The notes: generated from the sequence alone by a model not told the origin. Positions 4,751 to 41,987 are shown, counted from the first letter of the stretch. The stretch is DNA of 41,987 bases from a virus (IMGVR_UViG_3300022935_000046:1-41987); one strand, 5' to 3'. Program-made: numbers and translations.

Positions 4751-4757
4751 TTATAAT

Positions 4758-4786: not shown

Positions 4787-4793
4787 CTAAATA
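4787..4793 (+). promoter_or_regulatory. Late promoter element for the gp48-gp5 module
   Basis: CTAAATA, one base from the ATAAATA core of T4-type late promoters, 17 nt before the ATG of the gp48-like gene and followed by TATAGGAGA (4797-4805), whose AGGAGA is the Shine-Dalgarno sequence. No sigma70-like -35 is needed at this class of promoter. Weaker match than the others in the window. Confidence 0.55.
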
Positions 4794-4810
4794 ATGTATA
4801 GGAGACATCA

Positions 4811-5644: not shown

Positions 5645-5946
5645 TGGCAAGTTATACTAAAACAAGTCCGTATGCAACTACCACTGTAACAGCAAGTGGC
5701 GAACTAGATTTACTTAAAATACGTCCTGTACCTGCAGATGACGACGATTTTCTTTATACAGTAGAAGCACAATACAACAATAGACCAGATCTATTAGCAT
5801 TTGACCTTTACGGTACACCTAAACTGTGGTGGGTCTTTGCACAACGTAATTTAGATGTATTGAAAGATCCTGTGTTTGATATGAAAGCAGGAACAAAAAT
5901 ATTTCTACCAAAACAAAGTTCTTTACAAAAGGCACTGGGTATCTAA
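5644..5946 (+). CDS. 53: gp53, baseplate wedge protein
   Basis: A small wedge protein (100 residues; T4 gp53 is about twice as long) that joins the wedges around the hub. The core LLAFDLYGTPKLWWVFAQRN (about 51-70) is the LysM-like fold seen in gp53: a YG-x-P-x-L-W-W-V block, here followed by a hydrophobic IFLP strand near the end. The ATG shares one base with the stop of the preceding gene (TAATG), and its own stop is joined to the next ATG in the same way, so the three genes are translationally coupled. Confidence 0.85.
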   Translation: MASYTKTSPYATTTVTASGELDLLKIRPVPADDDDFLYTVEAQYNNRPDLLAFDLYGTPKLWWVFAQRNLDVLKDPVFDMKAGTKIFLPKQSSLQKALGI

Positions 5947-21300: not shown

Positions 21301-24300
21301 TAGACAAAACAGATATTGGATTTACAGCAACTTTTGATAGAGCTGTTCCTTTTAGCGTCGGCGAAATTATTGGTATTAACAATGTTAACGACGATGTTAA
21401 CGGATTTTGGACTGCTAGAGATGTAAGTTTGAATGTTGTTGAATTTTATTCAAACAAAGACATTGGAGAAGAAGGCATTGATTTAAGTGATAGTACACTT
21501 GGTATAGTATCACAATTAAATGGTCGTAGACTAAACAATATCACTGATATTAATTCACTGTTAATTGATTATGATGTTACTGAAAATGATCGCCTATGGT
21601 TAGACGATAACGGTACTGGCAAAAGCGAAGTAATTGATAATGCTAGAATATTTAATCTACAAGCAGAAATTCCAAATGAAGAAGGATTAGTAGATGTAGG
21701 TTATGGTACTAGTTTTGCAGCAAGTGGTAGCAATCAAGTGTTGGCAGTAGGTATGCCTGGTGCAGGATTAAATGGTCGTGTTGCTGTATATACTAGATTA
21801 AGTGAATCATTAGAATACACATTATTACAAACTTTAGAAATTGATGGTATTAAAACACAAGCAATTGAAAGTATAATAAATTCAAATCCTGGTGTAATTA
21901 CTACACCTATTGCACACGGAATTAGAGAAGGCGAAAAAATATTAATTTCAAATGCAACTGGTATTACTGCTCTTAACGACAATTATTATTATGCAAAACC
22001 AACAACTACAACTGCATTTGAAATTTACACAGATAAAGCGTTAACTAATCCTGTAGATACTACAGCATTAGGCACACACGATGTAAACAGTGGTACTTTA
22101 ACTGTTGGTACACTTTATGATATAGGTTCAGGTTTTGGTACTAGTGTTGACGTAACTGAAAACGGACAATACATTATTGTTGGTGCACCTAATGCAAGTG
22201 ATGTTCGCAGCAAATATGTTGGCGAATATGATGGTACTGCAAGCTACTTACAATATGATATTGTATCTGACAGAGGTACATTATGGCAAGCACTAAGAGA
22301 TACTCCTGCTGGTGTAGCAGATAGTACAATCAGTACTTTGTCACAGGATTGGGAGTTAGTAGATGTATTAACTGCTGACCAATCAGCATATTTAAGTAAT
22401 CTACAAAACCAAGGTGTTATACATGTCTACAAAAAAGATGTTACAGCTTATAAACTAGAAGCAACAATTTTATCACCTGTTGCTAGATCAGGAGAGCAGT
22501 TTGGTATTGCAATCAAGTCTGCATTTACTAGCGATTTAGTACACAAGTTTTATGTGAGAAGTTTAGCAGATAATGGTAGAATATATTTCTTAGAAAACAG
22601 TCTTGCTAATGTAAACATTTTCAACTATTCAAGAGATCCAAATTACAAAGGTACATTTGATCCTCTAAAAACATACTATGAAGGTGAAATAGTATTTGCA
22701 GGATATATTTTATACAAAGCAACAACAAATGTATTTGGAAGTAGTGGAATACTACCTGGTGTTGACAGCGAGTGGCAACAACTTGATCAATATATTGACT
22801 ATGTTGGTTTTGTACCTAATCTTGGTGATGTAACAGAAACAGAAAGTGACAGTGTAGGTTTAGGCACAGCATCTGATATTGGTAAAAGTTTTGATGTATC
22901 AAAAGATGGTAATGTGATAGCTATTGCTGGTTATTTAGATGCAACAGGAATCAATCGTGTTAGTGTATACAGATTCAACAACAACGACGGACGTTATGTT
23001 TACGAATCTAACATTGACGGCGATGTAGCAGCAGAAGACGATTTTGCTTATTCATTGGCAGTATCAGATGATGGAAAAGACATTGCAATAGGTGCTATTG
23101 GCGCTGACTTTACAGGTCTAAACAATGGTAAAGTATATCTTTATAGATACAATTTTGACAGCGAAAATCCTTTGTTTGAATTGCAACAAGAATTGTATTC
23201 TCCAAAAGGACAGCAAAATGAATACTTTGGTTACAGCTTAGATTTTAGCAAAAACAAACTTGCAATAATGAGCACCAACGGTGATAATATTGCAGAAATG
23301 ACATTTGATTCAAATCTAACACAATTTGATAATAGTGCAACTGCATTTAGAGATCGTGTTGTAGATAACGGTCAAGTTTACATTTTTGAAAACTACAACG
23401 ATACTTGGATTTATGCAGAAAAAATGAGATATCTAAGAGATACTTCAAAAGCTCTATTCCCAAGTGTGAAAATAGTTGATAACCACATTATTGTTGGACA
23501 ACCTGGCAGTATGTTTACTAATAGTCTTGGCCTAGATACAAACGTTGGATTTGTTGTAGATTTTAGAGCACAGAAAAATACTAATGCTTGGACTTCAAAT
23601 AGTTTGATACAAGATTATGTTGATTTATCACAGATTAAAAATGTATTCTTGTACGACAAAACAAACGGCGATCTTGTAACATACTTGGATTATATTGATC
23701 CTGTACAAGGTAAAATCGCAGGACCTGCAGAGCAAGAACTAAGTTTCAAGTTGTATTATGATCCTGCTGTGTATAATATTGGCAGCACAAATACAGGAAA
23801 CAAAACACCTTGGGACAGTAGATATGTTGGAAAGCTATGGTGGGACCTAAGCACAATCAAATGGTTTAATACAAGACAGCGTGGCCTTGAATATAAAACT
23901 AACAATTGGAATACTCCGCTACCAAGTTTTGAAGTAGACGTTTACGAATGGGTTGAAAGCGACTTACTACCGAGCGAATGGGATGATATTGCAGATACAG
24001 TAGAAGGCCTAGCAGATGGTGTTAGTGGAACAACCAAATACAATGACGACAGTTATGTTGTTGCAGATGTGTATGATGCAGTAACAGGAACCTTCTCAAA
24101 CAAATATTATTATTGGGTAAAGAACAAAAGAACCCTTCCGGCAGTTGACACACGAAGCATTAGTGCATATGATGTAACATTGCTTATTCAAGATCCTGCA
24201 GGTCAAGGATACAGATTTGTAGCATTCTATGAAAACAACAAGTTTGGACTTTACAACGTAAGAAATCTTATCAAAGATGAAAATATAATTCTGCATGTTG

Positions 24301-27300
24301 AATGGAAAAAGTTTGAAACTGAAAATAATATTCACAGTGAATATCAGCTTCTAACTGAAGGCGTTGCTACAAGCAAGCCTAATGCAGATATAGTGCAAAA
24401 ATGGATTGACAGTTTAGTAGGATATGACAAAAACAGTAATCAGCTACCAGACATTGATATTAGCATACCTCGTAGGTATGGTGTTCTAAATACTCCAAAT
24501 CAAAGTATGTTTATCAATAGAACTGAGGCTCTAAAGCAAGTAGTTGAAAGAGTCAATGGTGTTCTTGCAGATAACTTAATTGTAGATGATTTTAGTTTAA
24601 GTGGTTTACAAAAAGCAGACCCAATGCCTAGCATTTACAGCAATGATTACGATGTTAAAATTGCAAGCGAAAATCTTTTAAGATTTGTTCCTGTTGCTAG
24701 AATTGAAACTGCTACACTTACACCTACAATTATTGATGGAAGAATTAAAAGTGTAACTATCACAAATCCAGGTAGAGGATATGTTGATCCTAGTTATACA
24801 GAAGGCAGTGTGCGCAAAGGACCTACTGTAGATATTAGAGGCACAGGTACAGGTGCAAAAATACAACTTTACATCAATAACCTAGGACAAGTTACAAGTG
24901 CAGTAGTAGAAAAAGAAGGTAAAAATTACAGTGATAACACACTGTTAATTGTAAGAAGATTTACAGTGCTTGTTGAAAATGATAGCAACATTGGCGGATT
25001 CTGGGCATTGTATAATTACACACCGGAGCAAAAAGAATGGAGTGTAGAAAGAATACAATCGTATGATACTACATTATATTGGCAATATACAGACTGGTAT
25101 GCAGAAGGGTATGATGAAACTACTGCTATCAATCATCTAGTACCTGGAAGTTATGCATTAGAAGCAACCAACGATTTAATTGGCGAAGTGGTAAAGATTG
25201 AAAACATTGGATCTGGTGGTTGGTTACTACTAGAAAAAATTGACAACTTACCAGAAGTAGATTATACTGTAAATTATAAAACTATTGGTAGACAAAATGG
25301 TACAATTCAATTATCAAAATTATTGTATCAAAATCAAACCAGTGGCTTTGATAATCAAGTATTTGATGCATACTTGTATGATAGAGAACCTGTAAACGAA
25401 ATACGCAACATTATGTTGGCTTTACAAAATCAAATTTTTGTAGACCAACTAGAAGTTGAGTGGAACAAACTGTTCTTTGCAAGTATTAGATATGCATTAA
25501 GTGAACAAGTTAATATTGATTGGGTATTCAAAACAAGTTTTGTAAAAGCAAAACACAATGTTGGCGAACTACAACAAAAAATTACATTCAAAAATGATAA
25601 CCTTCCTAATTATGAAGATTATGTAAACGAAGTAAAACCTTACAAAACTAAAGTTAGAGAATACGTAAGCAGTTATCAAAAAACAGAGCCGACACAAACC
25701 AGTGTAACTGACTTTGATTTGCAGCCACGTTATGATGAAGTAGAAGGACGTATTGTTGCCGAAAGAACAAGTGTGTTCAATAGCGAAGTACAAACTTACA
25801 GTCCTTTTGTTGAAACGTATCCTCAAAAGCATTGGTTAGATAATGTTGGTTTTGAAATAACTGAATTTAAGATTTATGATGGCGGCACAGGTTGGACTGA
25901 TGGTCCAAATGTAACTGTAAGCGGTGGCGGAGGTCCTACATTAAAAGGTAGAGCTACACTTGCTGGAGATGTTGTAAACTTTATTGATGTTGATGTAAAA
26001 GGTGCAAAATATATTACAGCACCTACTGTAACTTTTGACGGTACACAATCTGAAGAAGGTACACCAGCAAGAGCATATGCTATTATTGGTAATAGCAAAG
26101 CAAAAGCAACACATATGCTAATGAAGTTTGATCGTGTATCAGGAAATCTTGTTTTCACTGATTTACATGTTCCAACTGAAACATTTACAGGAAACGGTGC
26201 GTCAACTGATTTTGTATTGAAATGGCCAATTGACACAAGAGTTTCAAAAATCAAAGTAACAGTAGACGGAGTTGAAAGTTTAAGCAGTGAGTTTACACCT
26301 AGCAACAAAGAAGATACAAGCACAGGGTATACTAGAAAATTAGGTGTTATTAGTTTTGCAGAACCTCCTGCAACAGGTGCTGTTGTTATTGTAGATTATT
26401 ATAGAAATGCAAGTATGTTGACAGCAGCAGATAGAATTACCTATTTCTATAAGCCAACAGACGGCATGCCAGGTAACGATCTTGCACAAGTAATGGATGG
26501 CATTGATTACGGTGGAGTTCAAATAGATACAATTTCATTTGGTAATACTCTAGGGTTTGATACTGATGGATTTGGTGTAAACAGTTTTGACACATACGAC
26601 AGTGCATTTGATGATGAAATATTTGTATTAGATGGTAGTACAAATGTGCTTGATCTTGCTACTCCTCTTGAAGCAAACGTTACATACAACATTTACTTCA
26701 AGAGTGTTGCTGCACCTAAGAGCGAAAGTCCAATTAGACTAGACAGCGATAGTTGGCCAACAGCAGATGAAAAATTACCATTTGCTGTAATGGGTCCAAT
26801 AAACGGCGACGGTATTACAACTAGTATTGTTTTAAGTGATATACTTGAGGAATATAACATTCTTGATGATATTCCTTATGTTGCCAACCAAGCCGGTGAC
26901 ACTATTATTATTAGAAAAGAATCTAGTGATGGTACAACTACTCCAGACTTTACTAATTTTGATGTAGAACTACGTGGTGGCGATTTTGCGCTATCAACTG
27001 CTACTGGAGTTCAAGCAGGTGATATTACAGTTGACGGTGATGGATTTGTTACACCAACTACAAGTAAAGGACCTGAGGAACAGGTACCTGGCCAATTAGT
27101 TGATGCACTAGATATTACAGTGTACAACAGAGTTCAAGATGGACAGGGTGTTATAACTGTACACAACTTTACAACCGACGATGCTACACTCGAGTATGCA
27201 CTAAGCGGAACAGCAAAGTCGCAATCAAATGTAATTGCAAAACTAGATTATGAAATACTAGATCCATCGTTGTACACAATTGATTGGAAAACAAACACAT

Positions 27301-29537
27301 TCCAATTTGCTGATAGTACACCTTTAGTTGCAAATAAAAATCTAAACATTATATTAATTGATAATAATGGTCTTGATGTAATAGACAGCGATCGTATTGT
27401 TGCTATTGATCAATCAACAAGATTGCATACAGATATCAAGTACGATACAAATTATAGTTTGTTTGTTACAAGAAACGGAAATGTTGAACTAGCAACACCT
27501 CTAAATGTTAATGGTAACTTGTTTATAGAGCTTACAACAAAAAGCCAAATAGGCGATATTTTTGATTACACAGTTTATAATAGTACAACACCTGATTTTA
27601 GTCAAATAGTTGTTGATGAATCTTTTGTTCCTGATGGTGTAAAAAATTATCATATATTTAGAACAGGTGCTAACCCACAAGCAGAAGTTCTCCTTCCATA
27701 TAATAGAGAACCTTTAGCAAATAATATTGTTGTACAAGTTAACAATAAAATATTAAATCCGGGTTATAGGAAGAAAATTATTATAGGTACTGATAGAAGT
27801 TATGAAATTGACAAATGGCAATTTGAAATTTTATCTCGTGTTTATCAACAAGATATAATTGTGTATCTAAATGGAGATTATTTGTCACCTAATTATTGGA
27901 ACTTTGATCCTGTTAATGGACGAATAGATTTAACTTCAACGGTTGTTGGCAAAGAAGGTGATGTTTTAGAAGTACATATTATACGTGATGCTGAATATTC
28001 ATTTACTGACACAGTCATAGAAATGACTGTAACAAGTCCAGCGTGGAGCAACGGTATTCCAGTAGGCGACGAAATATTATTTGCCTTAACAGATGATAGC
28101 ACAACTGTCAGAGGAATAGTAAAAGAAAAAACTGTAAATGGTAATGATGTAACTCTTAAGTTGTATGGTTATGAGCGTGATGCTATTGAAATGATAACAA
28201 AAGATGATACACCAAAAAGTGTTACAGCTATTGCTACATATGGTGATGACAGCACATACGAAACTGTAGAATTAACAAGTGTAAGTTTTGCACAAGGTGA
28301 AACATTGAATTTTGCTACACCACCTGCTGCTAGACATGCAGTAAAAATTTACACATTCTCAAATCACGATATAAACGGTTTTGAAAGAGAAAGTTTCAAT
28401 GTTGTATTTTCAACTACACATGCTCCAGAAGGAACTGATGCATATCTTGATAGAAACCTATTAACAAAAGGTTATATTGCATTGAGCAAACCTGCAATTA
28501 GTTCTAACTATGTGTGGGTAATTAAAAATGGCAGATTACTAAGTGCAGAAGTAGATTACACACTGTCTGCAGATAATTCAGCTGTGCAACTAGCAAGACG
28601 TGTAAACAAAAACAGCACTATAGAAGTAATACATTTTGCAGGTGCAGTAAGTACACCAAAATATGGATTTAGAATATTCAAAGACATGCTGAATAGATAT
28701 CACTTCAAGCGTTTGAATAATGCAAATACATATAGATTACAGCAGCCTCTAAATTATTACGATACACAGATTTTATTAGAAAATGCAGACGGTATTACTA
28801 TTCCTGATCGTAATAGAAATCAGCCAGGTATTATTTGGATTGACAAAGAACGTATAGAATATTATTCTGTAGAAAACGCTACATTGTCTCAGTTACGTAG
28901 AGGAACACTTGGTACTGGTATAAAAACAGTACACGATAAAGGTTCTACAGTAATTGGTCAAGGTCCTGAAGAAACAATACCGTATAAAGAAAATACACAA
29001 GTTGTTGATTTAACAGATTTTGCAGACGGAAGTACTGGTGAAATTTTACTAGAAAATGATCTATATGCAGCAGCAAATGCATATGTAGACAAACTGTCTG
29101 CAACATTAAGTGCGTTTGAAATTGAAACATTAGTTGATCATATTGCTTCAAGTATGATTGATATATTTATTGGAGGTAGACGTTTAAGAAAAGAACTTCC
29201 ATTAGAAACAAATAACAAACTAAAAGACAGAAACTATTACAAGTTTAATGCAACAATAGATCAAGATTCTCCAGCAGGTGATGAAATAGTACCACCTGAA
29301 TTTACAACTGAAAATGTGTTTATAAATGGCGAGTCAAAAACACTATTGATATTAAATATTCAAGATGATACACATCCTGATAATATTCCATTGTTTGGAG
29401 AAAAAATTACGCTTGTAAGAAAAACTGGACAAATTTGGAATGATGTAGTTGAAGGAAATACTACATTATCGCTTAGTGAAAGTCAAAACAAGATCGCAAG
29501 ATTTATAAGAGAGAAAACAATATCGCTACCACGATAA
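15342..29537 (+). CDS. Giant gp7-position baseplate protein with FG-GAP and binding-like modules
   Basis: One uninterrupted frame of 4731 codons stands where T4 has gene 7 (1032 residues), coupled to gp6 by TAATG. Visible modules: a YRGQTYRFEIDTPGHP strand (about 190-220); a Trp-rich block PGYWRAVYKQAYDTDRPHMT...WW...YGPAPY (about 1136-1190), familiar from marine T4-like structural proteins; four short Y-x-x-G-x-x-V-x-Y-type segments resembling carbohydrate-binding modules (about 1455-1490, 1714-1760, 2295-2340, 2435-2484); FG-GAP/integrin-like propeller repeats (about 2115-2730); two glycine-rich loops of the GRGY/GTGW type (about 3137-3195, 3506-3570); several copies of a V-x-V-N-G beta-sandwich module; and near the C-terminus WIDKERIEYY ... 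LSQLRRGTLGTG (about 4480-4525). I infer a gp7-like wedge protein enlarged with surface-binding domains. Identity as gp7 rests on position; coding integrity is certain. Confidence 0.75.
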   Translation: MAYNDEQNEYPLPAGDSKNPSSANFLPRYFRTEANKKFLGSTLDQVTTPGVVEKINAFAGRREAKAVKSTDTYLADVSTNRENYQLEPAVVIKDNIGNVEFYKDYNDYIGQLTAFRSTTKDHSKLNSQEFYAWDPHINFDKFTNFREYYWLANGPQEIPVRGQSLEVRSTYTISTVVDDDNTAYVFTPNGFSRNPSLKLYRGQTYRFEIDTPGHPIGIAISRAFQPGLDNVDSSLITTLFEDGVEITPNDTDTLKEREYAIKEGFVEKGVLEFTVPMNAPETLYYISQNNINTSGVFNIYDIEENSEINVEDEILGKKTYRTSDGWDFSNGMKVYFQGNVTPASYDNGLFYVEGVGEAIKLVPLTDLAVPAIFTQDTLVPFDTNGFDRVPFGDAKSFAGTKDYICMNRADESRNGWARYNRWFHKDVIEESARINNQETGLDESLRAKRPIIEFEANLRLYNHGSTAKTYVDLVDTFTSDVFSNIEGQSGYNIDGIDLVEGMRVLFTADPDPLVNGKIYEVTFILHTNTTQISLVETEDTDPELDQTVLVKDGNKNAGRMFWYNGTEWKIAQDKTALNQAPRFDLFDNSGYSIGDEDYYPSNNFEGNRLFAYRVGTGANDSELGFPLAYKNINNVGDIVFDFPLLTQSYEYEQNNVVYTQPSDELFLKKNKSNGVYYVNAWTKANELSSQYVIRKYTGDDIVNRFPIDVYNNSANLTDLVCKVYVNNQFKIQGVDWNFVDDNNVRKINLVQELSAEDVCIIKTKSSADKTSVGHYEIPYNLERNPLNNNITEFTLGQVNDHVEGLIAEVPAFNGKQPGRGNLRDLGEVAKYGRKFVQHSGPINLPLYHLTDKNANIVKAVRFAKTEYSKFKREFLSVAKASTFVGPVKEHVDLLLQELTKNKTKTMPFYSTDMIGFGGAKLLEYTVLDNRNRYYALSKVFNIRQLTKKAVYVYLNDAQLTYGTDYTFTENGFIDITAANENGDVIKIYEYENTEGSFLPPTPTKLGMYPAYEPELQTDNSYSTTTKVIRGHDGSLSVAYNDYRDDLLLELEKRIYNNLKVVYDENVFNIHDYIEGIYRNSNVPKESMDRILISDFVAWLPLVGNPDYTTNEFVTQGDGFTYNYSRSISATGEKLPGYWRAVYKQAYDTDRPHMTPWEMLGFSVKPTWWETQYGPAPYTSDNLIMWKDLELGLVKEPGKAAYVKKKYVRPQLTKHLPVNQFGQLVDPLASGFAKEFSYAMMRNDGFKFGDEAPIETAWRRSSDYAFSLLVAMIINRPAQVFAIGFDRSRTSRNIAGNYVYNGKKAIRAKDLIFPKTKTNGKVNQTLGLINYIENYLQTNITANYEKYIDRLKTINSQIGLKLGGFADKSKLKLVLDSRTPLNQGNVFVPQENYQIFLNTSSAQEIVSYSGVIIEKIGRGYKISGYDKEDPYFEYYKPIESANDIGINVGGISDSFLDWDENKQVVAGKIVKYSNRFYRANENHITGAEFDSTLYSALKELPIAGGANAVLRRRFESVKSTIDYGTILTKSQEVVDFLLGYEQSLLELGFSFEYNNRETETIEDFRLATKEFLFWTTQNWAANSVIVLSPGANTVEFNRDYFVVDDVFDNFYGLDVLKADTGKLRTSYTNIIRDNTNRFGIAPKNNAEGIFFIKLPLVQKEHVVLIDNTTVFNDTIYDPEPGYRQERIKVVGYRTDDWNGSLNIPGFTYDEALVTEWESWKDYYIGELVKYKQFYYTAVVTHSGTEEFNFSNWNVLSERPKSSLKPNWDYRANQFTDFYDLDTDNFDSEQQRLAQHLIGYQKRQYLENIINDDVSQYKFYQGMIQDKGTKNALTKLFDKLGSADKDSLEFFEEWAIRTGQYGATDAFDEVEYQLDEKQFRIEPQTVELVNTVDNTRTDLVYQYPKAKVYLKNNDYDHAPFPVADNLEEYTKTAGYVALDQVNFIARSLKDVLSFNINSIDLNKYIWVPEVQQSWSVYKHIQSPVRIVRIDKTDIGFTATFDRAVPFSVGEIIGINNVNDDVNGFWTARDVSLNVVEFYSNKDIGEEGIDLSDSTLGIVSQLNGRRLNNITDINSLLIDYDVTENDRLWLDDNGTGKSEVIDNARIFNLQAEIPNEEGLVDVGYGTSFAASGSNQVLAVGMPGAGLNGRVAVYTRLSESLEYTLLQTLEIDGIKTQAIESIINSNPGVITTPIAHGIREGEKILISNATGITALNDNYYYAKPTTTTAFEIYTDKALTNPVDTTALGTHDVNSGTLTVGTLYDIGSGFGTSVDVTENGQYIIVGAPNASDVRSKYVGEYDGTASYLQYDIVSDRGTLWQALRDTPAGVADSTISTLSQDWELVDVLTADQSAYLSNLQNQGVIHVYKKDVTAYKLEATILSPVARSGEQFGIAIKSAFTSDLVHKFYVRSLADNGRIYFLENSLANVNIFNYSRDPNYKGTFDPLKTYYEGEIVFAGYILYKATTNVFGSSGILPGVDSEWQQLDQYIDYVGFVPNLGDVTETESDSVGLGTASDIGKSFDVSKDGNVIAIAGYLDATGINRVSVYRFNNNDGRYVYESNIDGDVAAEDDFAYSLAVSDDGKDIAIGAIGADFTGLNNGKVYLYRYNFDSENPLFELQQELYSPKGQQNEYFGYSLDFSKNKLAIMSTNGDNIAEMTFDSNLTQFDNSATAFRDRVVDNGQVYIFENYNDTWIYAEKMRYLRDTSKALFPSVKIVDNHIIVGQPGSMFTNSLGLDTNVGFVVDFRAQKNTNAWTSNSLIQDYVDLSQIKNVFLYDKTNGDLVTYLDYIDPVQGKIAGPAEQELSFKLYYDPAVYNIGSTNTGNKTPWDSRYVGKLWWDLSTIKWFNTRQRGLEYKTNNWNTPLPSFEVDVYEWVESDLLPSEWDDIADTVEGLADGVSGTTKYNDDSYVVADVYDAVTGTFSNKYYYWVKNKRTLPAVDTRSISAYDVTLLIQDPAGQGYRFVAFYENNKFGLYNVRNLIKDENIILHVEWKKFETENNIHSEYQLLTEGVATSKPNADIVQKWIDSLVGYDKNSNQLPDIDISIPRRYGVLNTPNQSMFINRTEALKQVVERVNGVLADNLIVDDFSLSGLQKADPMPSIYSNDYDVKIASENLLRFVPVARIETATLTPTIIDGRIKSVTITNPGRGYVDPSYTEGSVRKGPTVDIRGTGTGAKIQLYINNLGQVTSAVVEKEGKNYSDNTLLIVRRFTVLVENDSNIGGFWALYNYTPEQKEWSVERIQSYDTTLYWQYTDWYAEGYDETTAINHLVPGSYALEATNDLIGEVVKIENIGSGGWLLLEKIDNLPEVDYTVNYKTIGRQNGTIQLSKLLYQNQTSGFDNQVFDAYLYDREPVNEIRNIMLALQNQIFVDQLEVEWNKLFFASIRYALSEQVNIDWVFKTSFVKAKHNVGELQQKITFKNDNLPNYEDYVNEVKPYKTKVREYVSSYQKTEPTQTSVTDFDLQPRYDEVEGRIVAERTSVFNSEVQTYSPFVETYPQKHWLDNVGFEITEFKIYDGGTGWTDGPNVTVSGGGGPTLKGRATLAGDVVNFIDVDVKGAKYITAPTVTFDGTQSEEGTPARAYAIIGNSKAKATHMLMKFDRVSGNLVFTDLHVPTETFTGNGASTDFVLKWPIDTRVSKIKVTVDGVESLSSEFTPSNKEDTSTGYTRKLGVISFAEPPATGAVVIVDYYRNASMLTAADRITYFYKPTDGMPGNDLAQVMDGIDYGGVQIDTISFGNTLGFDTDGFGVNSFDTYDSAFDDEIFVLDGSTNVLDLATPLEANVTYNIYFKSVAAPKSESPIRLDSDSWPTADEKLPFAVMGPINGDGITTSIVLSDILEEYNILDDIPYVANQAGDTIIIRKESSDGTTTPDFTNFDVELRGGDFALSTATGVQAGDITVDGDGFVTPTTSKGPEEQVPGQLVDALDITVYNRVQDGQGVITVHNFTTDDATLEYALSGTAKSQSNVIAKLDYEILDPSLYTIDWKTNTFQFADSTPLVANKNLNIILIDNNGLDVIDSDRIVAIDQSTRLHTDIKYDTNYSLFVTRNGNVELATPLNVNGNLFIELTTKSQIGDIFDYTVYNSTTPDFSQIVVDESFVPDGVKNYHIFRTGANPQAEVLLPYNREPLANNIVVQVNNKILNPGYRKKIIIGTDRSYEIDKWQFEILSRVYQQDIIVYLNGDYLSPNYWNFDPVNGRIDLTSTVVGKEGDVLEVHIIRDAEYSFTDTVIEMTVTSPAWSNGIPVGDEILFALTDDSTTVRGIVKEKTVNGNDVTLKLYGYERDAIEMITKDDTPKSVTAIATYGDDSTYETVELTSVSFAQGETLNFATPPAARHAVKIYTFSNHDINGFERESFNVVFSTTHAPEGTDAYLDRNLLTKGYIALSKPAISSNYVWVIKNGRLLSAEVDYTLSADNSAVQLARRVNKNSTIEVIHFAGAVSTPKYGFRIFKDMLNRYHFKRLNNANTYRLQQPLNYYDTQILLENADGITIPDRNRNQPGIIWIDKERIEYYSVENATLSQLRRGTLGTGIKTVHDKGSTVIGQGPEETIPYKENTQVVDLTDFADGSTGEILLENDLYAAANAYVDKLSATLSAFEIETLVDHIASSMIDIFIGGRRLRKELPLETNNKLKDRNYYKFNATIDQDSPAGDEIVPPEFTTENVFINGESKTLLILNIQDDTHPDNIPLFGEKITLVRKTGQIWNDVVEGNTTLSLSESQNKIARFIREKTISLPR

Positions 29538-34294: not shown

Positions 34295-35803
34295 ATGGCA
34301 TACATAATAAACACTTTTAACGGTAACCAACTCGTTGTAGTTGAAGACGGCACAGTTGACCAAACTACCGATATTAAACTTATTGGTAAAAACTACAGTG
34401 GTTACGGAGAAGCACAAAACGAAAACTTTTTGCATTTATTAGAGCATTTTGCAAATACAACAGCACCTGCTAAAGCAATTACAGGACAGGTTTGGTATGA
34501 TGCAGGTACTGCAAAACTTAAATTCTACACTGGTACAGCATGGAAAAATGCTGGTGGAGCAGAAGTTGCTGCAACAGAACCAGCAGGATTAAACGAAGGT
34601 GATTTGTGGTACAATACTACAAGCAGTCAGTTATATGCAAAAAATGCAGTTGGAGAATTTATTCTTGTTGGACCTCAAGCAGCAGGCGACGGTACAACAC
34701 AAATGCAAAGTGTTACAGTAGTAGACAACCTCAGTGCTAATAAATCTATTATTGTTGCATTAATTAACGATACTCCAGTGTATGTCATTAGCTCACAAGA
34801 ATTTACTTTAGGCTCAACACAACCTGCAGATGCTCCAGATTTAACTGGATTTACATTAATCCGCAGAGGCATAACATTAATTAACACAGACAGCACAACA
34901 GGTGTAACAACAGGTGCAGGTACAGCAGGCGAACCAGTTATTTGGGGTACTGCAAGTGATGCGTTAAAACTAAACGGACAACCTGCTAGTGATTTCTTAA
35001 CAGCAAGCACAGCAAACTTTACAAGTATTGCACGTTTTGCTGATGCAGGATTTACAGTTGGTAACAGCAACGATTTGTCAGTAAGTGTTGTTTCAGATAC
35101 AATTGGTCAAATACAAAACCAAATTGGTGATAGAATACTTATGGGTGCTACACGTAGTGGTGTTGGCGTTGGTAATATTATAAGCATACGAAATCAAGAT
35201 GCAGTTAATACAGGTATTTTCCCTGAGACAACATCTCTTTACAATTTAGGTAGTGCTTCATTAAAATGGTCAACTGTACACGCAGATACATTTAGTGGTG
35301 AGGCAACTTCGGCGGCTGCACTTGATGTTGCAGGCACAGCTCGTACAGCAAGCACATTAGGAACAGCAAACACTATTGCAGCTAGAGACAGCAGTGGTAA
35401 CTTGACAGCAGTAATTTTCAGTGGTACTGCAACAAAAGCACGTTACGCAGACTTAGCAGAAAAATACACAACAGATCAAGAATATCCAGTTGGCACTGTA
35501 ATGGCTATTGGTGGCGCATCAGTAACAGCCGAAGCAGTAGCAGCAAAAAGTTCAGATGTTGCTATAGGTGTTATCAGTGAAAATCCAGCATACTTAATGA
35601 ACTCTGATATTGATGGACAGGCTATTGCACTTAAAGGTCGTGTACCAGTAAGAATTAAAGAGCCAGTATCAAAAGGACAATCAGTTTATGCATGGGAAAA
35701 CGGAGTTGCTACTACAACTGCAACTAGAGCATTTGTAGGAGTAGCACTTGAAACAAATACCAATGCAGAGGAAAAACTTGTTGAGTGCATACTAAAAACA
35801 TAA
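34295..35803 (+). CDS. Fibre-like protein, paralogue 3, with a distinct C-terminal domain
   Basis: The 502-residue product has the same N-terminal adapter (LIGKNYSGYGEAQNENFLHL, QVWYDA, GDLWYN, ILVGPQ). The middle is Ala/Ser/Thr-rich. The C-terminal 120 residues (about 383-502) form a domain often seen at the end of phage fibres: KARYADLAEKY, YPVGTVMAIGG, IGVISENPAYLMN, ALKGRVPVRIKEPVSKGQ. This type resembles tail domains related to peptidase G2-like or intramolecular-chaperone modules; I see no certain catalytic residues. Transcribed alone from the late promoter at 34265. Confidence 0.75.
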   Translation: MAYIINTFNGNQLVVVEDGTVDQTTDIKLIGKNYSGYGEAQNENFLHLLEHFANTTAPAKAITGQVWYDAGTAKLKFYTGTAWKNAGGAEVAATEPAGLNEGDLWYNTTSSQLYAKNAVGEFILVGPQAAGDGTTQMQSVTVVDNLSANKSIIVALINDTPVYVISSQEFTLGSTQPADAPDLTGFTLIRRGITLINTDSTTGVTTGAGTAGEPVIWGTASDALKLNGQPASDFLTASTANFTSIARFADAGFTVGNSNDLSVSVVSDTIGQIQNQIGDRILMGATRSGVGVGNIISIRNQDAVNTGIFPETTSLYNLGSASLKWSTVHADTFSGEATSAAALDVAGTARTASTLGTANTIAARDSSGNLTAVIFSGTATKARYADLAEKYTTDQEYPVGTVMAIGGASVTAEAVAAKSSDVAIGVISENPAYLMNSDIDGQAIALKGRVPVRIKEPVSKGQSVYAWENGVATTTATRAFVGVALETNTNAEEKLVECILKT

Positions 35804-35830: not shown

Positions 35831-36799
35831 ATGGCAGTAGGAGATATAATATCAGCCGCTAGGTACAACACTCTACAAGGTAGAATTGCAGCAATTTTAG
35901 GTGTAGGTAGTGGAGATAAAGGATATAACAACACAGTGTTGAGTAGTCCAGTACCAGTAGGCAATGAAGTTACTGCCGAGCATATGCAAAACTTAGCAGA
36001 CGATTATACAAAAATTTATGTACACCAAACAGGTAGTTTACCTGGTGGTTTAATTGGACAAGATGTTGTTACTCGTGTTAAATCATCAGAAACAGGATTA
36101 GTTTGGGATGACCTGTATGATGAATATGAAACAAACTTAACAACTGTAGAAACAAATAGGTTTGATACACATTATGATTATGTAGCAGTAGAATCTTCTA
36201 GTGCAAATTCTACACGTAGCACAGTTTGGGGTGGTAGTGCATTACCACAGAGTGTTATACATGAATTTACAGTAGATTTTGGTACAGCAAATGCACGTAG
36301 AGGATTTTTTAACGCAGGTGGCGAAATTAGATTTAGTGCTGCACTAACACATACTCTTGCAGTAAGTGATCCAGATTATCAAAAAACCGAAGACTGGAAA
36401 GCAATGCTTACAGCAATGCAAACAGTTATTTTCAATTATGATACCACAGAAAGTTATAACTTACAAGGTACACCAGAAGATGTTACTGACGATACTGTAA
36501 CGGGTGCTGGCACAGGTAGTGCTATTGGTAACCTTGACTTAACCAGTAGCTATCAAACCATTTATACAAAAACTGGTTCAGCTGCGTATGTTGACAACGA
36601 ATACACCATACAAGCTAAAGCAGAATCTAGTAGCAAAATTAGATTCTTAATTACGTTTGCTGATGATGCAAATGGAGCAGGTGGAGCAGACGAAAGAGTA
36701 AACGGAACCTTAGTTAGTTCAATAGCTCATATGAGAGCAGATAGCATGTCCTATGTATCAAATCCTGCTCCTGCATATTCTCTTATAACAGGTCTTTAA
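35831..36799 (+). CDS. Structural protein of unknown function, paralogue A
   Basis: The 322-residue product is not one I recognise. Its N-terminus (ISAARYNTLQGRIAAILG) looks like a short helical hairpin of a tail-associated protein. The middle has FFNAGGEIRFSAAL (about 158-171) followed by DWKAMLTAMQTVIF, and the C-terminus a KIRFLITFADD strand with an Asp/Gly-rich loop. The same three elements in the same order occur in the next gene, so the two are paralogues. Late promoter in front and position after the fibres point to a virion protein, perhaps a fibre tip or decoration. Confidence 0.65.
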   Translation: MAVGDIISAARYNTLQGRIAAILGVGSGDKGYNNTVLSSPVPVGNEVTAEHMQNLADDYTKIYVHQTGSLPGGLIGQDVVTRVKSSETGLVWDDLYDEYETNLTTVETNRFDTHYDYVAVESSSANSTRSTVWGGSALPQSVIHEFTVDFGTANARRGFFNAGGEIRFSAALTHTLAVSDPDYQKTEDWKAMLTAMQTVIFNYDTTESYNLQGTPEDVTDDTVTGAGTGSAIGNLDLTSSYQTIYTKTGSAAYVDNEYTIQAKAESSSKIRFLITFADDANGAGGADERVNGTLVSSIAHMRADSMSYVSNPAPAYSLITGL

Positions 36800-36827
36800 T
36801 TGACAAAAAATAAATTTAATGTATAAT
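36800..36827 (+). promoter_or_regulatory. Sigma70-type promoter in front of paralogue B
   Basis: TTGACA (36800-36805), a 16-bp spacer and TATAAT (36822-36827): both hexamers match the consensus exactly. It overlaps a late promoter element, so the gene may be transcribed both by the host-type holoenzyme and late in infection. Confidence 0.75.
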
Positions 36828-36852: not shown

Positions 36853-38001
36853 ATGTCTGCAACTGGACAGCCAATTACGGCGTTAGAATACAACAATATT
36901 AGAGGAAGTATTGCAGCCAAACTAGGCGATTTTAACACGTGGACTGAGCATGGTTTAGCAACAAGTACTACGTCAAGTGGATATGGTAGAAATTTTACTA
37001 GTAATTTAGTTGTAGGAGGAAGTACTCCTGGTGTTAGTGATACTGTAACTGAACAGCAACATTTTGATTTGTGGTTAGATTTACAAGCAGGTCATGTTCA
37101 TCAATTTGGTACTATGAATGCAACCATTTCTCCTACTGAATTTGAGGGTAAACTAACATATCCTGCTGATGTTGATATTCCTAATAGAGATTTAATTGCT
37201 TGGCCACATTATGTAGACTTGCAAACTACTGCCGCAGCAGTCAATGCATTTAATCATGCTACTACAGATTTTGACAGTAGCAGCTTTACAACTGGATTAC
37301 TTCGTACTTCAGGTGGTACAAGTTGTAGCAGTACTAGAAACGGATCTACTAATCCTTGGAGCACTACAATAACACACAGGGTTACAGTCAATTTTTTGAA
37401 TCACAATGATTTATTATACTTCTTGAGCGCAGGCGGCGAAATAAGATTTGATGCAAGTTTAACAGGCGGTACAAGTGGAACTGCAAATACCAAAGATTGG
37501 GACTGGTCACAAATATTAGCAGCTATGGGTACTATTCGTTTTGGGCGTGTTGCAGGTAACTGGCGTACAGAAGCAATTAGTCCAGGCACAGGTACAGGAA
37601 GTTTGTTATCTAGCATCAGTACAGGCACAACACCGACTACATTAATATTCCAAAAGCAAGGTGGTGTAACAACAGGTAATCCAAGTCCAGGAGATCCAGG
37701 TGGTACAACTATCTATGATAATAACAGCTACAAAATCTATGCAAGTACAAATGTAACATTTGCAAACGCAACTGCTTTGGTATTCCAAATTGAATTTGAT
37801 GATGCTGATACTGGTACAGGCGGCCAACAAGGTTATCCAGGTGAACCTGATGTGGGTGGTATTGACGAAAATGTAACAGGAAACGTTACAAGCAACGTTT
37901 ACACTTATACGCCAAGTAGTACCTTTGTATATGATAGTGTTACATATAGTGCTATTACACAAGCAGCACCAAATGGTGTTGTAAACTCTGCACTTGTTTA
38001 A
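36853..38001 (+). CDS. Structural protein of unknown function, paralogue B
   Basis: The 382-residue product is a longer relative of the preceding one: ITALEYNNIRGSIAAKLG at the N-terminus, FLSAGGEIRFDASL (about 189-202) with DWSQILAAMGTIRFG, and near the C-terminus VFQIEFDDAD followed by a Gly/Pro-rich loop. It has additional His/Trp-containing segments (HVHQFGTM, IAWPHYVDL). No enzyme motif seen. It is the last gene before the sigma70-driven cassette; its own 5' region carries both promoter types. Confidence 0.65.
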   Translation: MSATGQPITALEYNNIRGSIAAKLGDFNTWTEHGLATSTTSSGYGRNFTSNLVVGGSTPGVSDTVTEQQHFDLWLDLQAGHVHQFGTMNATISPTEFEGKLTYPADVDIPNRDLIAWPHYVDLQTTAAAVNAFNHATTDFDSSSFTTGLLRTSGGTSCSSTRNGSTNPWSTTITHRVTVNFLNHNDLLYFLSAGGEIRFDASLTGGTSGTANTKDWDWSQILAAMGTIRFGRVAGNWRTEAISPGTGTGSLLSSISTGTTPTTLIFQKQGGVTTGNPSPGDPGGTTIYDNNSYKIYASTNVTFANATALVFQIEFDDADTGTGGQQGYPGEPDVGGIDENVTGNVTSNVYTYTPSSTFVYDSVTYSAITQAAPNGVVNSALV

Positions 38002-38012
38002 TCAGTAATAAG

Positions 38013-38041
38013 TTGACTTTACCAAAAATTTATTATATACT
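38013..38041 (+). promoter_or_regulatory. Sigma70-type promoter for the glycosyltransferase / radical SAM cassette
   Basis: TTGACT (38013-38018), a 17-bp spacer and TATACT (38036-38041), followed by GGAG (38052-38055) before the ATG at 38064. No ATAAATA element is present in this gap, unlike the structural genes, so the cassette should be read by the host-type holoenzyme. Confidence 0.7.
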
Positions 38042-38063
38042 ATAGCTCTAATGGAGAATACGT

Positions 38064-38411
38064 ATGGACGAACGTTTATCAAAAGCACTTGATATTAGCA
38101 ATTATATGATTACACTTAACAATCAAAAAAGATTGTTAAAAGAACAATATGCAGAAAATTTAATTTACTATTACAACGGAGGACAGTTCTCCGTCACACA
38201 ACAACTTATAAGTTTTTGTCAAAGTCTTGTACAAAAAGAACAAGATGAAACTATCCTTATTGATGATAACAATATTCCAATTCAAGTAAATGATTTAGAA
38301 GATTTTACGAATTCAGTAATTTCACAATATTTTGAAGCAAGCAACAAATATTTTACTGAATACAATAAGTTAAAAACAAACAGATCAGTTGAAAGCATAA
38401 TGGATTTATGA
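38064..38411 (+). CDS. Small helical protein of unknown function
   Basis: The 115-residue product appears all-helical, with Gln/Asn- and Tyr-rich helices (LIYYYNGGQFSVTQQLISF, about 32-50) and a conserved-looking acidic loop ILIDDNNIPIQ. No motif I can name. It is the first gene after the sigma70-type promoter and its stop overlaps the next ATG (ATGA), so it probably works with the following glycosyltransferase-like protein, perhaps as a partner or adaptor. This is inference from coupling only. Confidence 0.6.
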   Translation: MDERLSKALDISNYMITLNNQKRLLKEQYAENLIYYYNGGQFSVTQQLISFCQSLVQKEQDETILIDDNNIPIQVNDLEDFTNSVISQYFEASNKYFTEYNKLKTNRSVESIMDL

Positions 38412-39250
38412 GTCAAGGTGTACTACTTTTTGCAAGTAACAATACAAAAATTAACTATGTAAAGCAAGCATATTTCCTTGCACTGCGTATTAGCAAGTAT
38501 ATGAACTTGCCCACAAGCCTTGTTACTGATGTTGATGTAAAATCTAAATTTCCAGATTACGTTGATGCATTTGATAACATAATTTTTGTTAACAATCTCA
38601 AACATCAATATGCAAATAAACGTTACAATGACGGAAGTGTATCCAACAGGATTTTGCCTTTTAACAACGGTAACAGAGCAGACGCTTATTTTTTAACACC
38701 ATACGATGAAACAATCGTAATGGACACAGATTATATTGTGTCAAACAACATACTAAACAACTGTTTTTGTGCAGCAAACGATCTTTTGTTGTACACAGAT
38801 GCAGTGCATTTAGGCATACACAACGGTACTCCTGAATTTGACAGAGTTAGTGATACTAGTGTAGATTTTTATTGGGCAACTGTTGTGTTTTTTAGAAAAT
38901 CTAAAATTAACGAAGTATTCTTTAATTTAGTAAAACACATACAAGAAAACTATATGCACTACAGAAGCATATACCAATTTAAGAGTAATGTGTATAGGAA
39001 TGATTTTGCTTTTAGTATTGCTGCACATATCATGAATGGATACCAGCAAGGCAACTTTATAGCAAAGTTACCCGGTAAACATTTTTACACAATTGATAAA
39101 GATGTATTACATAGTATCAAGGATGATGAAATTACCATGCTAATGGAAAAAGCAGGCAGACTTGGAGAGTATACTTTAGCAAAAACCAAAGGATTAAACA
39201 TACACGTTATGAACAAGTTTAGTTTGGAGAGAGCAATTGACAACCAATAA
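38408..39250 (+). CDS. Glycosyltransferase-like protein (GT-A type), copy 1
   Basis: The 280-residue product begins with a Rossmann-like strand-helix (GVLLFASNNTKINYVKQAYF, about 4-23). It has the sequence LTPYDETIVMDTDYIVSNN with a DTD motif (106-108), the metal- and nucleotide-sugar-binding DXD signature of GT-A glycosyltransferases. Later aromatic-rich segments (DFYWATVVFFRKS; LPGKHFYTIDKD) fit an acceptor side. The nearest known class by eye is GT8-like. The next gene has the same plan, so the two are paralogues. Substrate unknown: it could transfer sugar to phage fibres, to host glycans or to a small molecule. It overlaps the preceding gene by ATGA. Confidence 0.65.
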   Translation: MSQGVLLFASNNTKINYVKQAYFLALRISKYMNLPTSLVTDVDVKSKFPDYVDAFDNIIFVNNLKHQYANKRYNDGSVSNRILPFNNGNRADAYFLTPYDETIVMDTDYIVSNNILNNCFCAANDLLLYTDAVHLGIHNGTPEFDRVSDTSVDFYWATVVFFRKSKINEVFFNLVKHIQENYMHYRSIYQFKSNVYRNDFAFSIAAHIMNGYQQGNFIAKLPGKHFYTIDKDVLHSIKDDEITMLMEKAGRLGEYTLAKTKGLNIHVMNKFSLERAIDNQ

Positions 39251-40082
39251 TTTTACAATGCTTGCTCAAAACAGTGATTTTGATTATGTAAGACAAGCAT
39301 GTCTTGCTGCAATGAGTATACGTGCTACAAATGAAAATGCAAAAATTTGTTTAATTACAAATGATCCTGTGCCTTCACGTTATAAACAATTATTTGACGA
39401 TATTGTAGAAATACCTTGGGGAGACCATGCAGAAGATGAAGACTGGAAAATAAGTAATCGTTGGAAAATCTATCATGCTATTCCTTATGATGAAACTGTT
39501 GTACTTGATACAGATATGCTTGTGTTACAAGATCTAAACAGCTGGTTTGATTTTTTAAGAAATTATGATTTGTTTTATACTAGCAAAGTTTACACTTATA
39601 GAGGTGAAGTTGTAGATAAAACATTTTATCGTAAAGCATTTGCTGCATATGCTTTACCAAATCTTTATAGTGGAGTACACTATTTCAAAAAATCGGATCT
39701 AGCACATGAATTTTATACATGGCTAGAAATGATAACCAACAACTGGCAACTTTTTTACAAGCAATATGCAGGCGGCAAAACTTTTCAAAAAGTTTGCAGT
39801 ATGGATCTTAGTGCTGCTATTGCAGCAAAAATAATGAATATTGAAAACAAGATTACTAATCCTAATGTAATGTATCCTAGTTTTACACATATGAAACCTA
39901 AAATACAAAATTGGAATCAAAACTTTCAAGAAAGATGGCAGGATAGAGTTGGTGTGTATTTAGATGAAGATTTGCAATTAAAAATTGGCAACTATAAACA
40001 AAACGGTGTTTTTCATTATACTGAAAAAGATTTTGTAAGTAATCATATTATTTCAATTTACGAAAACTATTTAGGATTGTAA
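39237..40082 (+). CDS. Glycosyltransferase-like protein (GT-A type), copy 2
   Basis: A 281-residue paralogue of the previous product: MLAQNSDFDYVRQACLAAMS at the N-terminus and IPYDETVVLDTDMLVLQDL with a DTD motif (91-93). A LYSGVHYFKKSD segment (about 143-154) resembles the N/S-x-G-V-x-x-F element of GT8-type enzymes. Together these suggest a metal-dependent, retaining-type sugar transferase. The frame starts at a TTG inside the end of copy 1 (14 bp overlap), with GGAGAGA a few bases upstream; an ATG at codon 8 (39258) is the alternative. The spacing to the Shine-Dalgarno sequence favours the TTG. Confidence 0.7.
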   Translation: MTTNNFTMLAQNSDFDYVRQACLAAMSIRATNENAKICLITNDPVPSRYKQLFDDIVEIPWGDHAEDEDWKISNRWKIYHAIPYDETVVLDTDMLVLQDLNSWFDFLRNYDLFYTSKVYTYRGEVVDKTFYRKAFAAYALPNLYSGVHYFKKSDLAHEFYTWLEMITNNWQLFYKQYAGGKTFQKVCSMDLSAAIAAKIMNIENKITNPNVMYPSFTHMKPKIQNWNQNFQERWQDRVGVYLDEDLQLKIGNYKQNGVFHYTEKDFVSNHIISIYENYLGL

Positions 40083-40083
40083 T

Positions 40084-40629
40084 ATGCAAGTAGAAATTAT
40101 TACCAGCAGATATGTGCATTATGATGATAAAGGCGCTATAACAAAAATTTCAAGAGAAAAAGATGAAGATTCAGATGCTATTCAAGTTCCTTTTTCTAAA
40201 GTAAAGAAATTAATGGAAGGCAGAGAATCCTTAGTTGAATATATTGTTGAATGGGATTTCTTAGAAAAAAAGCATGTTCTCAAACACATGAGTGAATGGA
40301 GAACAGAGCAACTTAAAGATAACTTTTTATACGAAATTCAAAACGACGAAAACGCAGATGCTATAGTACAACAAGACAAACAAAACAAATGTTGGAGACT
40401 GGTATTGAGTGAAGAAGTACTTGAAGCAAAAGTAGATCCTACGAAGCAATTCTACAGCATTACAAAAAAGTATGATCCTAATGTGTTGTATAGATTAATT
40501 AGATTTGAAAAAGTTGGCGACGAATACATTGTTCCTTTTGAGTTAGATTTTGAAGTTGACAACCTTAATTTGTCAATATATACTGTAAGGAAGTTTTCTA
40601 CGTATTCATATGAGGTAATCGATGGCTAA
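40084..40629 (+). CDS. Unknown protein within the glycosyltransferase cassette
   Basis: The 181-residue product starts 1 bp after the previous stop. It has a beta-rich N-terminus (EIITSRYVHYDDKGAITKIS), a charged middle, and an FYSITKKYDPNVLYRLIRFE segment (about 122-141) followed by a VPFELDFEVDNLNLSIYTVR strand pair. No catalytic motif seen. It overlaps the next gene by 8 bp, so it belongs to the same message as the sugar-transfer genes. Role unknown. Confidence 0.55.
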   Translation: MQVEIITSRYVHYDDKGAITKISREKDEDSDAIQVPFSKVKKLMEGRESLVEYIVEWDFLEKKHVLKHMSEWRTEQLKDNFLYEIQNDENADAIVQQDKQNKCWRLVLSEEVLEAKVDPTKQFYSITKKYDPNVLYRLIRFEKVGDEYIVPFELDFEVDNLNLSIYTVRKFSTYSYEVIDG

Positions 40630-41545
40630 TACATTTCGTGTAGTTGACTATGATATTATATATCTTAGTTACGACGAACCAAATGCTGAAAAAAACTATG
40701 CAGATTTATGCACCAAGGTACCTTGGGCAAAACGTGTACACGGAGTAAAAGGCAGCGATAGCGCACACAAGGCTGCTGCTAAACAAAGCGATACAGATCG
40801 TTTTATCACTGTAGATGGTGATAACAGGGTAACTGATGATTTCTTAACACAAGTTATCAACTTTGATGAAAACGTAGATTTAACAAACAAAGTAATCAGT
40901 TGGACTGCAAAGAATATTATTAATGGACTTTCCTATGGTAATGGCGGATTGAAATGTTGGCCTAAAGCCCATGTATTAAACATGCGTACACACGAAAATG
41001 CAGATCCAAATAATCCACACGCTCAAGTAGATTTTTGTTGGGATACCGAATATGTTCAAATGAATGGAACATTTAGTAAAATTTACAACAATGCTACTCC
41101 GCATCAAGCATGGCGTGCTGGTTTCCGTGAAGGTGTTAAAATGGCACTGGACAGAGGTATGAGAGTAGGCATTGACGAGTTTCATAAAAATCATTGGAAA
41201 AATCTACATCGCTTGTATGTGTGGTTAATGGTTGGTGCAGATGTAGAAAATGGTCGTTGGGCTATTTACGGCGCTCGTGAAGGATTGTACAAAACAATGT
41301 GTACAGATTGGGACTTTGTAAATGTACGTGATTTTGACTGGCTTAATGAATATTGGGATAGCAAAGAAATTGACGAAGATAAAATGGAAGAAGATACAGT
41401 TGATCTTGGTTACAAGTTAATCGAAGAACTTGATTTGCCGATTGCAGCCGAGCCATTAAATGGTAATCAAAGTCTCTTCTTCAAAACAGTTTATCAGAAT
41501 CCTACTCGTGATAACAGCAAGCAATTTTTAGATAGAGAAACTTAA
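40622..41545 (+). CDS. Third glycosyltransferase-like protein (DGDN motif)
   Basis: This 307-residue protein opens with YDIIYLSYDEPNAEKNYADL (about 10-29), then WAKRVHGVKGSDSAHKAAA and RFITVDGDNRV (60-70). D65-G-D67 is the position of the DXD motif of GT-A enzymes, and the block resembles a group of phage and marine bacterial proteins labelled glycosyltransferase-like. A conserved-looking C-terminal half has HQAWRAGFREGVKM and a Trp-rich NGRWAIYGAREGLY. It differs clearly from the two upstream paralogues. GAGG precedes the ATG, and its stop is joined to the next ATG (TAATG). Donor and acceptor unknown. Confidence 0.6.
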   Translation: MANTFRVVDYDIIYLSYDEPNAEKNYADLCTKVPWAKRVHGVKGSDSAHKAAAKQSDTDRFITVDGDNRVTDDFLTQVINFDENVDLTNKVISWTAKNIINGLSYGNGGLKCWPKAHVLNMRTHENADPNNPHAQVDFCWDTEYVQMNGTFSKIYNNATPHQAWRAGFREGVKMALDRGMRVGIDEFHKNHWKNLHRLYVWLMVGADVENGRWAIYGAREGLYKTMCTDWDFVNVRDFDWLNEYWDSKEIDEDKMEEDTVDLGYKLIEELDLPIAAEPLNGNQSLFFKTVYQNPTRDNSKQFLDRET

Positions 41546-41987
41546 TGGAGCGTAGCGAAAGCGAAGAAATTAAACGCATTGATGAAATTACAAAAGAAAT
41601 TTCTCCTACGTTTTGTTTCGCAAAATGGTATCATGCCAACATATATTTCCAAACAGGTGAAACACATAGTTGTTATCACCCTGCTCCCCATAAGATTGAC
41701 ACAGCACCGTTATTAGAAAATCCAAGTGCAATACACAACACAGCACAAAAGAAACAAGAACGTGCTGCTATGATGCGTGGTGAACAACCTGCTGGTTGCA
41801 ACTACTGTTGGAAGATTGAAGCACTTGGCAAAGATTATGTTAGTGATAGAAAGCAACGTAACCAAACTATTTTCTTTAAGCATAGACTAAATGCTGTAAA
41901 AGAAGGCGGTGCAGAGTTTGATGTAAATCCAGAATATTTAGAAGTTTCATTTGGTAACGAGTGTAACTTTCGATGCGGATATTGTCA
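41545..41987 (+). CDS. Radical SAM protein, N-terminal part (cut by window end)
   Basis: The window contains the first 147 codons. Near the end is ECNFRCGYC, the CX3CX2C motif (C140, C144, C147) that binds the 4Fe-4S cluster of radical SAM enzymes. Upstream is a second cysteine-rich region, FCFAKWYH (C24), HSCYH (C43) and GCNYCWKIEALG (C85, C88), which resembles the extra-cluster region found before the SAM motif in phage and bacterial twitch/SPASM-type proteins. Such enzymes modify peptides, proteins, sugars or tRNA by radical chemistry. TAATG links it to the third glycosyltransferase-like gene, so it is probably part of the same pathway. The C-terminus and substrate are unseen. Confidence 0.85.
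   Translation, partial: MERSESEEIKRIDEITKEISPTFCFAKWYHANIYFQTGETHSCYHPAPHKIDTAPLLENPSAIHNTAQKKQERAAMMRGEQPAGCNYCWKIEALGKDYVSDRKQRNQTIFFKHRLNAVKEGGAEFDVNPEYLEVSFGNECNFRCGYC

Follow-up and report, generated by a model that had tools for sequence, protein, structure and literature searches.

Pelagimyophages carry a host recognition cluster (HRC) in which tail fibres, several glycosyltransferases (GT8 being the commonest), and radical S-adenosylmethionine (SAM) cassettes lie together; the cluster is described as hypervariable and non-syntenic, and sits between VrlC and gp14 (PMC7029224). A marine T4-like genome, TARA_ERS488813_N000010, holds 12 radical SAM genes, which its description links to Fe-S metabolism (PMC5332604). 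The sequence considered here (the window) is the complete IMG/VR fragment IMGVR_UViG_3300022935_000046, which is linear and 41,987 bases long. Behind its fibre genes come six tightly packed genes on the plus strand, in the order P1-GT1-GT2-U4-GT3-RSAM, from 38064 to the window's end: a small protein, two paralogous glycosyltransferase-like proteins, a protein without a convincing family match, a third probable transferase, and a radical SAM enzyme. An earlier reading of the window from its sequence alone (the sequence-only reading) could name no described system of this make-up, a statement that needs correcting: the pelagimyophage HRCs already pair fibres with GT8 and radical SAM cassettes (PMC7029224). 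That theme is already known; a fixed six-gene core with two promoters was not found described. Searches of the open-access literature for the fixed operon, for GT3, and for the two promoters returned no description, which does not in itself prove absence.

The junctions between the six genes are close. P1 (38064..38411) and GT1 (38408..39250) overlap by ATGA; GT1 and GT2 (39237..40082) overlap by 14 bp; a 1 bp gap separates GT2 from U4 (40084..40629); U4 and GT3 (40622..41545) overlap by 8 bp; and GT3 joins RSAM (41545..41987), itself cut off by the window end, through TAATG. The six genes and their overlaps agree with the sequence-only reading. Junction lengths also are fixed across about 85 distinct loci: -4 between P1 and GT1 (69/85), -8 between U4 and GT3 (54/86), and -1 between GT3 and RSAM (45/81). 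Presumably, the six genes are co-transcribed.

Of about 150 related IMG/VR loci, most keep this gene order. In the subset retrieved through GT2 or GT3, which is biased, departures from it are rare. F6 (34295..35803, plus strand), a conserved protein of the fibre/baseplate region upstream of the cassette, was therefore used as a second, unbiased fetch protein, and 58 of the loci it retrieved extend 6 kb or more downstream. The order P1-GT1-GT2-(U4)-GT3 was found in 56 of these 58, and RSAM also was matched in 51 of the 56. The remaining two end within giant fibre genes, short of the expected place of P1, so that all 56 informative loci agree. Together with the cassette-fetched set, this bears out the expectation that the genes travel together. 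Between F6 and P1, all 107 of the 107 proteins in relatives are like F7 or F8, in the window the last fibre gene ahead of the cassette (F7, 36853..38001, plus strand) and a fibre-like protein (F8, 35831..36799, plus strand). Even among divergent copies (GT3 44-51% identical, on contigs binned to other bacteria) the order is kept in two of three. In the nearest relatives an opposite-strand, convergent gene follows RSAM; there the cassette consists of exactly these six genes.

A sigma-70-type promoter, TTGACT-17-TATACT, lies ahead of P1 at 38013..38041 (plus strand), the one noticed in the sequence-only reading. Judged within the window alone, such a site does not exceed chance (36 sites versus 47 in shuffles; with stricter hexamers, 31 versus 24). 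Relatives are more telling: a site of at least 10/12 is present upstream of P1 in 65 of 69 distinct regions (94%), against 6% of shuffles, and of the 66 sites so located, 64 have a 17-base spacer. The same test revealed no such conservation upstream of GT1, GT2, U4, or RSAM. GT3 is different: a site matching at 10/12 or better lies upstream of it in 75% of 73 loci, versus 6% in shuffles. This second promoter (TTGACA-17-TATACT; 40556..40584, plus strand) lies inside the end of U4, mostly 63-67 bases ahead of GT3, and has left its mark on synonymous codons: threonine is ACT in 77/86 sequences (background 33%; P 1e-27), and aspartate is GAC in 67/68 (background 28%; P 2e-36), both P values being uncorrected for shared ancestry. 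Because both codons stand far above background, coding constraint alone is insufficient to account for the site. The intragenic promoter would drive GT3 and RSAM.

A third site precedes the last fibre gene (TTGACA-16-TATAAT; 36800..36827, plus strand), and sites of at least 10/12 occur upstream of 63% of 51 F7-like genes versus 4% in shuffles. The window's baseplate genes show no stand-out promoter conservation in the same comparison. P1, GT3, and F7 all carry conserved sites, so that the cassette has its promoter type in common with the last of the fibre genes. (Both the site inside U4 and that before F7 had escaped the sequence-only reading.) An unmodified host RNA polymerase could thus read the cassette from two conserved sigma-70-type promoters. 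The accompanying remark that the cassette promoter is without a late element carries little weight: with 6 occurrences of the T4 late motif TATAAATA expected across the window and two present, its lack at the cassette is uninformative, and it was dropped as a late-promoter marker.

Among the three transferases, GT2 (TTG start) is the best placed. A profile built from 42 sequences matches glycogenin (E 1e-4) across the half that binds the nucleotide sugar, and the DXD motifs align; residues D91 and D93 of its DTD motif, invariant in the 42 sequences, fall on the glycogenin DAD. The AlphaFold2 model (predicted local distance difference test score, pLDDT, 91.8) likewise retrieves glycogenin as the top Foldseek match (E 1e-7; probability 1.00; TM about 0.4-0.5), followed by LARGE1, GlyE, and UGGT. 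GT8 enzymes share a carboxyl-terminal His/Lys/Trp metal-phosphate motif, HxxGxxKPW. The carboxyl-terminal part of GT2 has invariant H218 and K220, a nearby proline, and near-invariant W226, in a spacing unlike that motif. GT2 does not reach the Pfam GT8 cut-off, and so is termed GT8-like rather than a GT8 member; its family likeness to glycogenin and GT8 appears secure. GT1 is a paralogue of GT2 (hhalign E 7e-24), glycosyltransferase-like, with an invariant DTD (D106, D108).

GT3 is strongly conserved (75% mean column identity), and both aspartates of its DGD motif (D65, D67) are invariant in 43 sequences and again in 173 distinct matches. Its best solved structural matches, all weak, are SunS, HddC, WrtF, and ppGalNAcT, mostly GT-A glycosyltransferases; the model also weakly matches a Che8 glycosyltransferase, and it has a clear structural relative (E about 1e-14) within two uncultured-phage proteins of 804 and 1076 amino acids. 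Profiles of GT1 and GT3 retrieved nothing significant from the PDB. GT3, a strongly conserved protein family without a Pfam or PDB sequence match, is a probable GT-A-fold transferase and a putative glycosyltransferase. A GT3-like domain (38% identity) recurs in a two-domain protein downstream in relatives, a family present in 51/90 loci. In sets of 108-202 distinct sequences, the catalytic residues of the cassette enzymes show little or no variation. The sequence-only reading took all of the DXD proteins for glycosyltransferases, which fits GT2 and its paralogue well; GT3 is more weakly placed in the GT-A fold. Conceivably, at least one of them is not a glycosyltransferase and uses the fold otherwise, for example as a nucleotidyltransferase, in an operon for tail assembly or nucleotide metabolism: the second-best solved match of GT3 is the nucleotidyltransferase HddC, and no Pfam glycosyltransferase family is reached at cut-off. 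With GT2 matching glycogenin by two independent routes, GT1 its paralogue, and the other GT3 matches mostly GT-A glycosyltransferases, this explanation is very improbable.

The radical SAM call was right, and can be sharpened. Orthologues of RSAM are about 457 amino acids long, of which the window holds the first 147, its very end encoding CNFRCGYC (CX3CX2C). A full-length orthologue matches NF033640 (N_Twi_rSAM) over the whole model at 300 bits (cut-off 170), and 30/30 members match. The CX3CX2C motif is invariant in 202 distinct sequences, and the GGE motif is invariant as well. By these signatures RSAM is assigned to the N-terminal twitch radical SAM enzymes of NF033640. P1 (115 amino acids, apparently soluble) and U4 have no convincing match: P1 matched no Pfam family, and the profiles of both found nothing significant in the PDB (for P1, nothing below 0.01). 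A simple scan of the six proteins (RSAM by its first 147 amino acids) detected no membrane-segment-like stretches, the maximum mean hydropathy being 1.1, and the cassette contains no membrane glycosyltransferase, flippase, or other membrane partner.

GT3 and the RSAM amino terminus evolve much more slowly than the fibres beside them. Across 61 loci, the median identity with the window's own protein is 92% for the RSAM amino terminus, 79% for GT3, 70% for GT2, 69% for P1, and 60% for GT1; the same loci give 54% for F6, 44% for F8, 42% for F7, and 39% for U4, the fastest-evolving of the six cassette genes. In comparisons with close relatives, pairs whose dS could be used have a ratio of nonsynonymous to synonymous substitution (dN/dS) of about 0.04-0.22, indicating purifying selection on the cassette genes, and P1 has zero replacements versus its nearest relative. 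The enzymes thus appear to stay fairly constant while the adjoining adhesins diversify. Comparison of sequences, then, shows the gene order, the promoter conservation, the purifying selection, the family of RSAM, and the family likeness of GT2.

What the enzymes modify is a further step. The reading tentatively preferred here, at somewhat less than even confidence, is that they modify the phage's own fibres in the cytoplasm before assembly. A constant cytosolic acceptor is favoured because of the adjacency to fibres, the soluble enzymes, and their slow evolution; the slower change of GT3 (79%) and RSAM (92%) than of the fibres (42-54%) fits such an acceptor better than it fits fast-changing host glycans. 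The simplest candidate would be a conserved domain common to the fibres. The enzymes would all be soluble: the paralogous GT8-like pair, the third probable GT-A transferase, and the twitch radical SAM enzyme. Residues of conserved fibre domains would receive sugars from host nucleotide-sugar pools, and either the sugar or the peptide would be altered by the radical SAM enzyme, in an order of steps that is conjectural. P1 and U4 might serve as adaptors or chaperone-like partners. A more elaborate version, a fibre-maturation operon in which the GT8-like pair, the new GT-A-like family GT3, and the twitch radical SAM enzyme work one after another on an unusual modification of receptor-binding proteins across the lineage, with separate promoters for its two halves, is unlikely.

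Several points weigh against the fibre reading. The choice of fibres as acceptor is inferred. The window's GT1, GT2, and GT3 share the want of a Pfam glycosyltransferase family at cut-off, and the GT3 model (pLDDT 78.5) resembles known folds weakly, its best match having E 4e-4 and a TM of about 0.3. The sigma-70-type promoter, being of host type, could mean early expression, equally suited to action on the host. Finally, GT8 enzymes are typical of lipopolysaccharide (LPS) synthesis, and the similar GT8 genes of pelagimyophages were interpreted as modifying the host O-chain (PMC7029224). The last two points belong to the main rival: that the enzymes alter the host surface during infection (LPS core, O-chain, or another glycan), for instance to block superinfection or aid progeny release, fibres and enzymes making up one recognition region. 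Sugar-nucleotide genes downstream in some relatives agree with it: an epimerase gene and, as judged by eye, a UDP-glucose-6-dehydrogenase-like gene. Against this, the cassette has no membrane transferase or flippase, GT3 and RSAM vary very little for enzymes that would have to track variable host glycans, and it is hard to see what a radical SAM enzyme would do in such a scheme. Action on the host surface is rather unlikely.

Downstream of the cassette, relatives differ among themselves; the six cassette genes do not. Between 4 and 14 NF033640 matches occur on the relatives' viral contigs, most of them grouped in the vicinity of the cassette, and AMP-binding, halogenase, and epimerase families are present as well. 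They would fit another possibility, in which the cassette belongs to a larger downstream region rich in radical SAM enzymes, desaturases, halogenases, and acyl-adenylating enzymes and makes a modified sugar, lipid, or small peptide that diffuses or acts like a cofactor. The pairing of a radical SAM enzyme with sugar transfer has a precedent in mycofactocin (PMC7491314). Yet the downstream part varies as the six genes stay fixed, the cassette of the nearest relatives stops at RSAM before the convergent gene, and the overlapping genes leave no space for a precursor-peptide gene; a diffusible product is improbable. The sequence-only reading had offered fibres, host surface glycans, or a modified peptide as targets. 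The last is the least likely of the three, since the cassette genes overlap or abut and leave no free short gene: with no precursor-peptide gene beside the maturase, a ribosomally synthesized and post-translationally modified peptide (RiPP) is disfavoured.

Individual downstream regions offer further detail. Four contigs (G001, G002, G005, and G009, with loci L055, L072, L241, and L155) have 12-14 NF033640-type matches each, mostly within tens of kb of the cassette. A tryptophan-halogenase-like gene is found at L007:11874-13370 and L002:11871-13382 (Pfam E 3e-77 for the L002 copy); pelagimyophage HTVC008M also has a gene annotated as such. L034:13373-14431 encodes a short AMP-binding enzyme (Pfam E 5e-19), and L082:13281-14045 is, by eye, a membrane desaturase-like gene.

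The window is a fragment of a T4-like large myovirus, with baseplate genes, a 4731-amino-acid structural gene, and fibre genes. Its minus strand encodes recombination proteins like gp46 (by search) and gp47, and a gp55-like sigma factor (the latter two by eye). The closest gp46 relatives, at 44-49% identity, belong to large myoviruses of Sinorhizobium, Pseudomonas (PA5oct), and Agrobacterium; cassette-bearing contigs reach 382 kb. Neither gp14 nor any tRNA was found in the window. Some relatives lie on contigs binned as Neomarinimicrobiota, Rickettsiales, Neisseriaceae, Gammaproteobacteria, or Rhodobacteraceae, and because these may be misbinned phage contigs, no host is claimed. The owners of the cassette are uncultured, mostly marine, T4-like large myoviruses, in which it probably forms a lineage-wide core operon heading the host-recognition region. 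Elsewhere in the window, the 4731-amino-acid structural protein (15342-29537) lies upstream of the cassette, and Phosso and PA5oct have large genes at the same place; a TTGACA-17-TATTAT site (minus strand, 4786-4758) closely precedes the gp55-like/gp47/gp46 gene run; and a small protein with the look of a GIY-YIG nuclease, by eye, is encoded at 406-831 (minus strand).

How far do cultured phages share the cassette? A collection of 50,697 isolate phage records yielded no clear homologue of GT2, GT3, RSAM, or P1. Searching that collection at the DNA level gave nothing, as did tblastn with the RSAM fragment, GT3, a P1 orthologue, and the downstream GT3-like paralogue; GT2 gave one weak match, in an uncultured 484-kb phage, and full-length RSAM two weak matches in Vibrio phages. 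HTVC008M, in the same collection, was unmatched by tblastn with GT2, GT3, RSAM, and P1. The cultured but distant Sinorhizobium phage Phosso (gp46 49% identity) resembles the window group in that radical SAM genes follow its tail genes; several of them, with an oxidoreductase, stand directly behind (L160, locus 1-8015). It differs in that no GT2 or GT3 homologue was found and its radical SAM proteins score below the NF033640 cut-off. When GT2 and GT3 profiles were run against Phosso, PA5oct, and Atu_ph07, nothing was found either.

At the level of single proteins, GT2 resembles glycogenin and GT8 in its predicted GT-A fold, its DXD motif, and its profile and fold matches; it differs in that the sequence match covers about the first 100 residues at about 15% identity, short of any Pfam family. 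RSAM stands apart within NF033640 as a subgroup fixed beside GT3. Mycobacteriophage virion proteins carry glycans, with capsid and tail tube as targets (Freeman 2023, via PMC12619734), and the weak likeness of the GT3 model to the Che8 enzyme is the point of contact. TARA_ERS488813_N000010 shares with the relatives studied here (4-14 NF033640 matches) an abundance of radical SAM genes, and differs in that no fibre-side glycosyltransferase operon is described for it in the available text (PMC5332604).

If fibres are the target, a widespread group of uncultured viruses covalently modifies its adhesins, which would bear on host range and resistance. To our knowledge, the numerous radical SAM genes of marine T4-like phages have no demonstrated substrate, and we know of no radical SAM partner in mycobacteriophage virion glycosylation. 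A fixed operon of RSAM with three transferases beside the fibres makes a concrete, testable proposal for substrate and timing. The nearest parallel remains the HRC, in which, as in this window, fibres, glycosyltransferase-like genes, and radical SAM genes occupy one region. The HRC as a whole is hypervariable; the six-gene core is fixed in order, junctions, and promoters, and only the part downstream of it varies.

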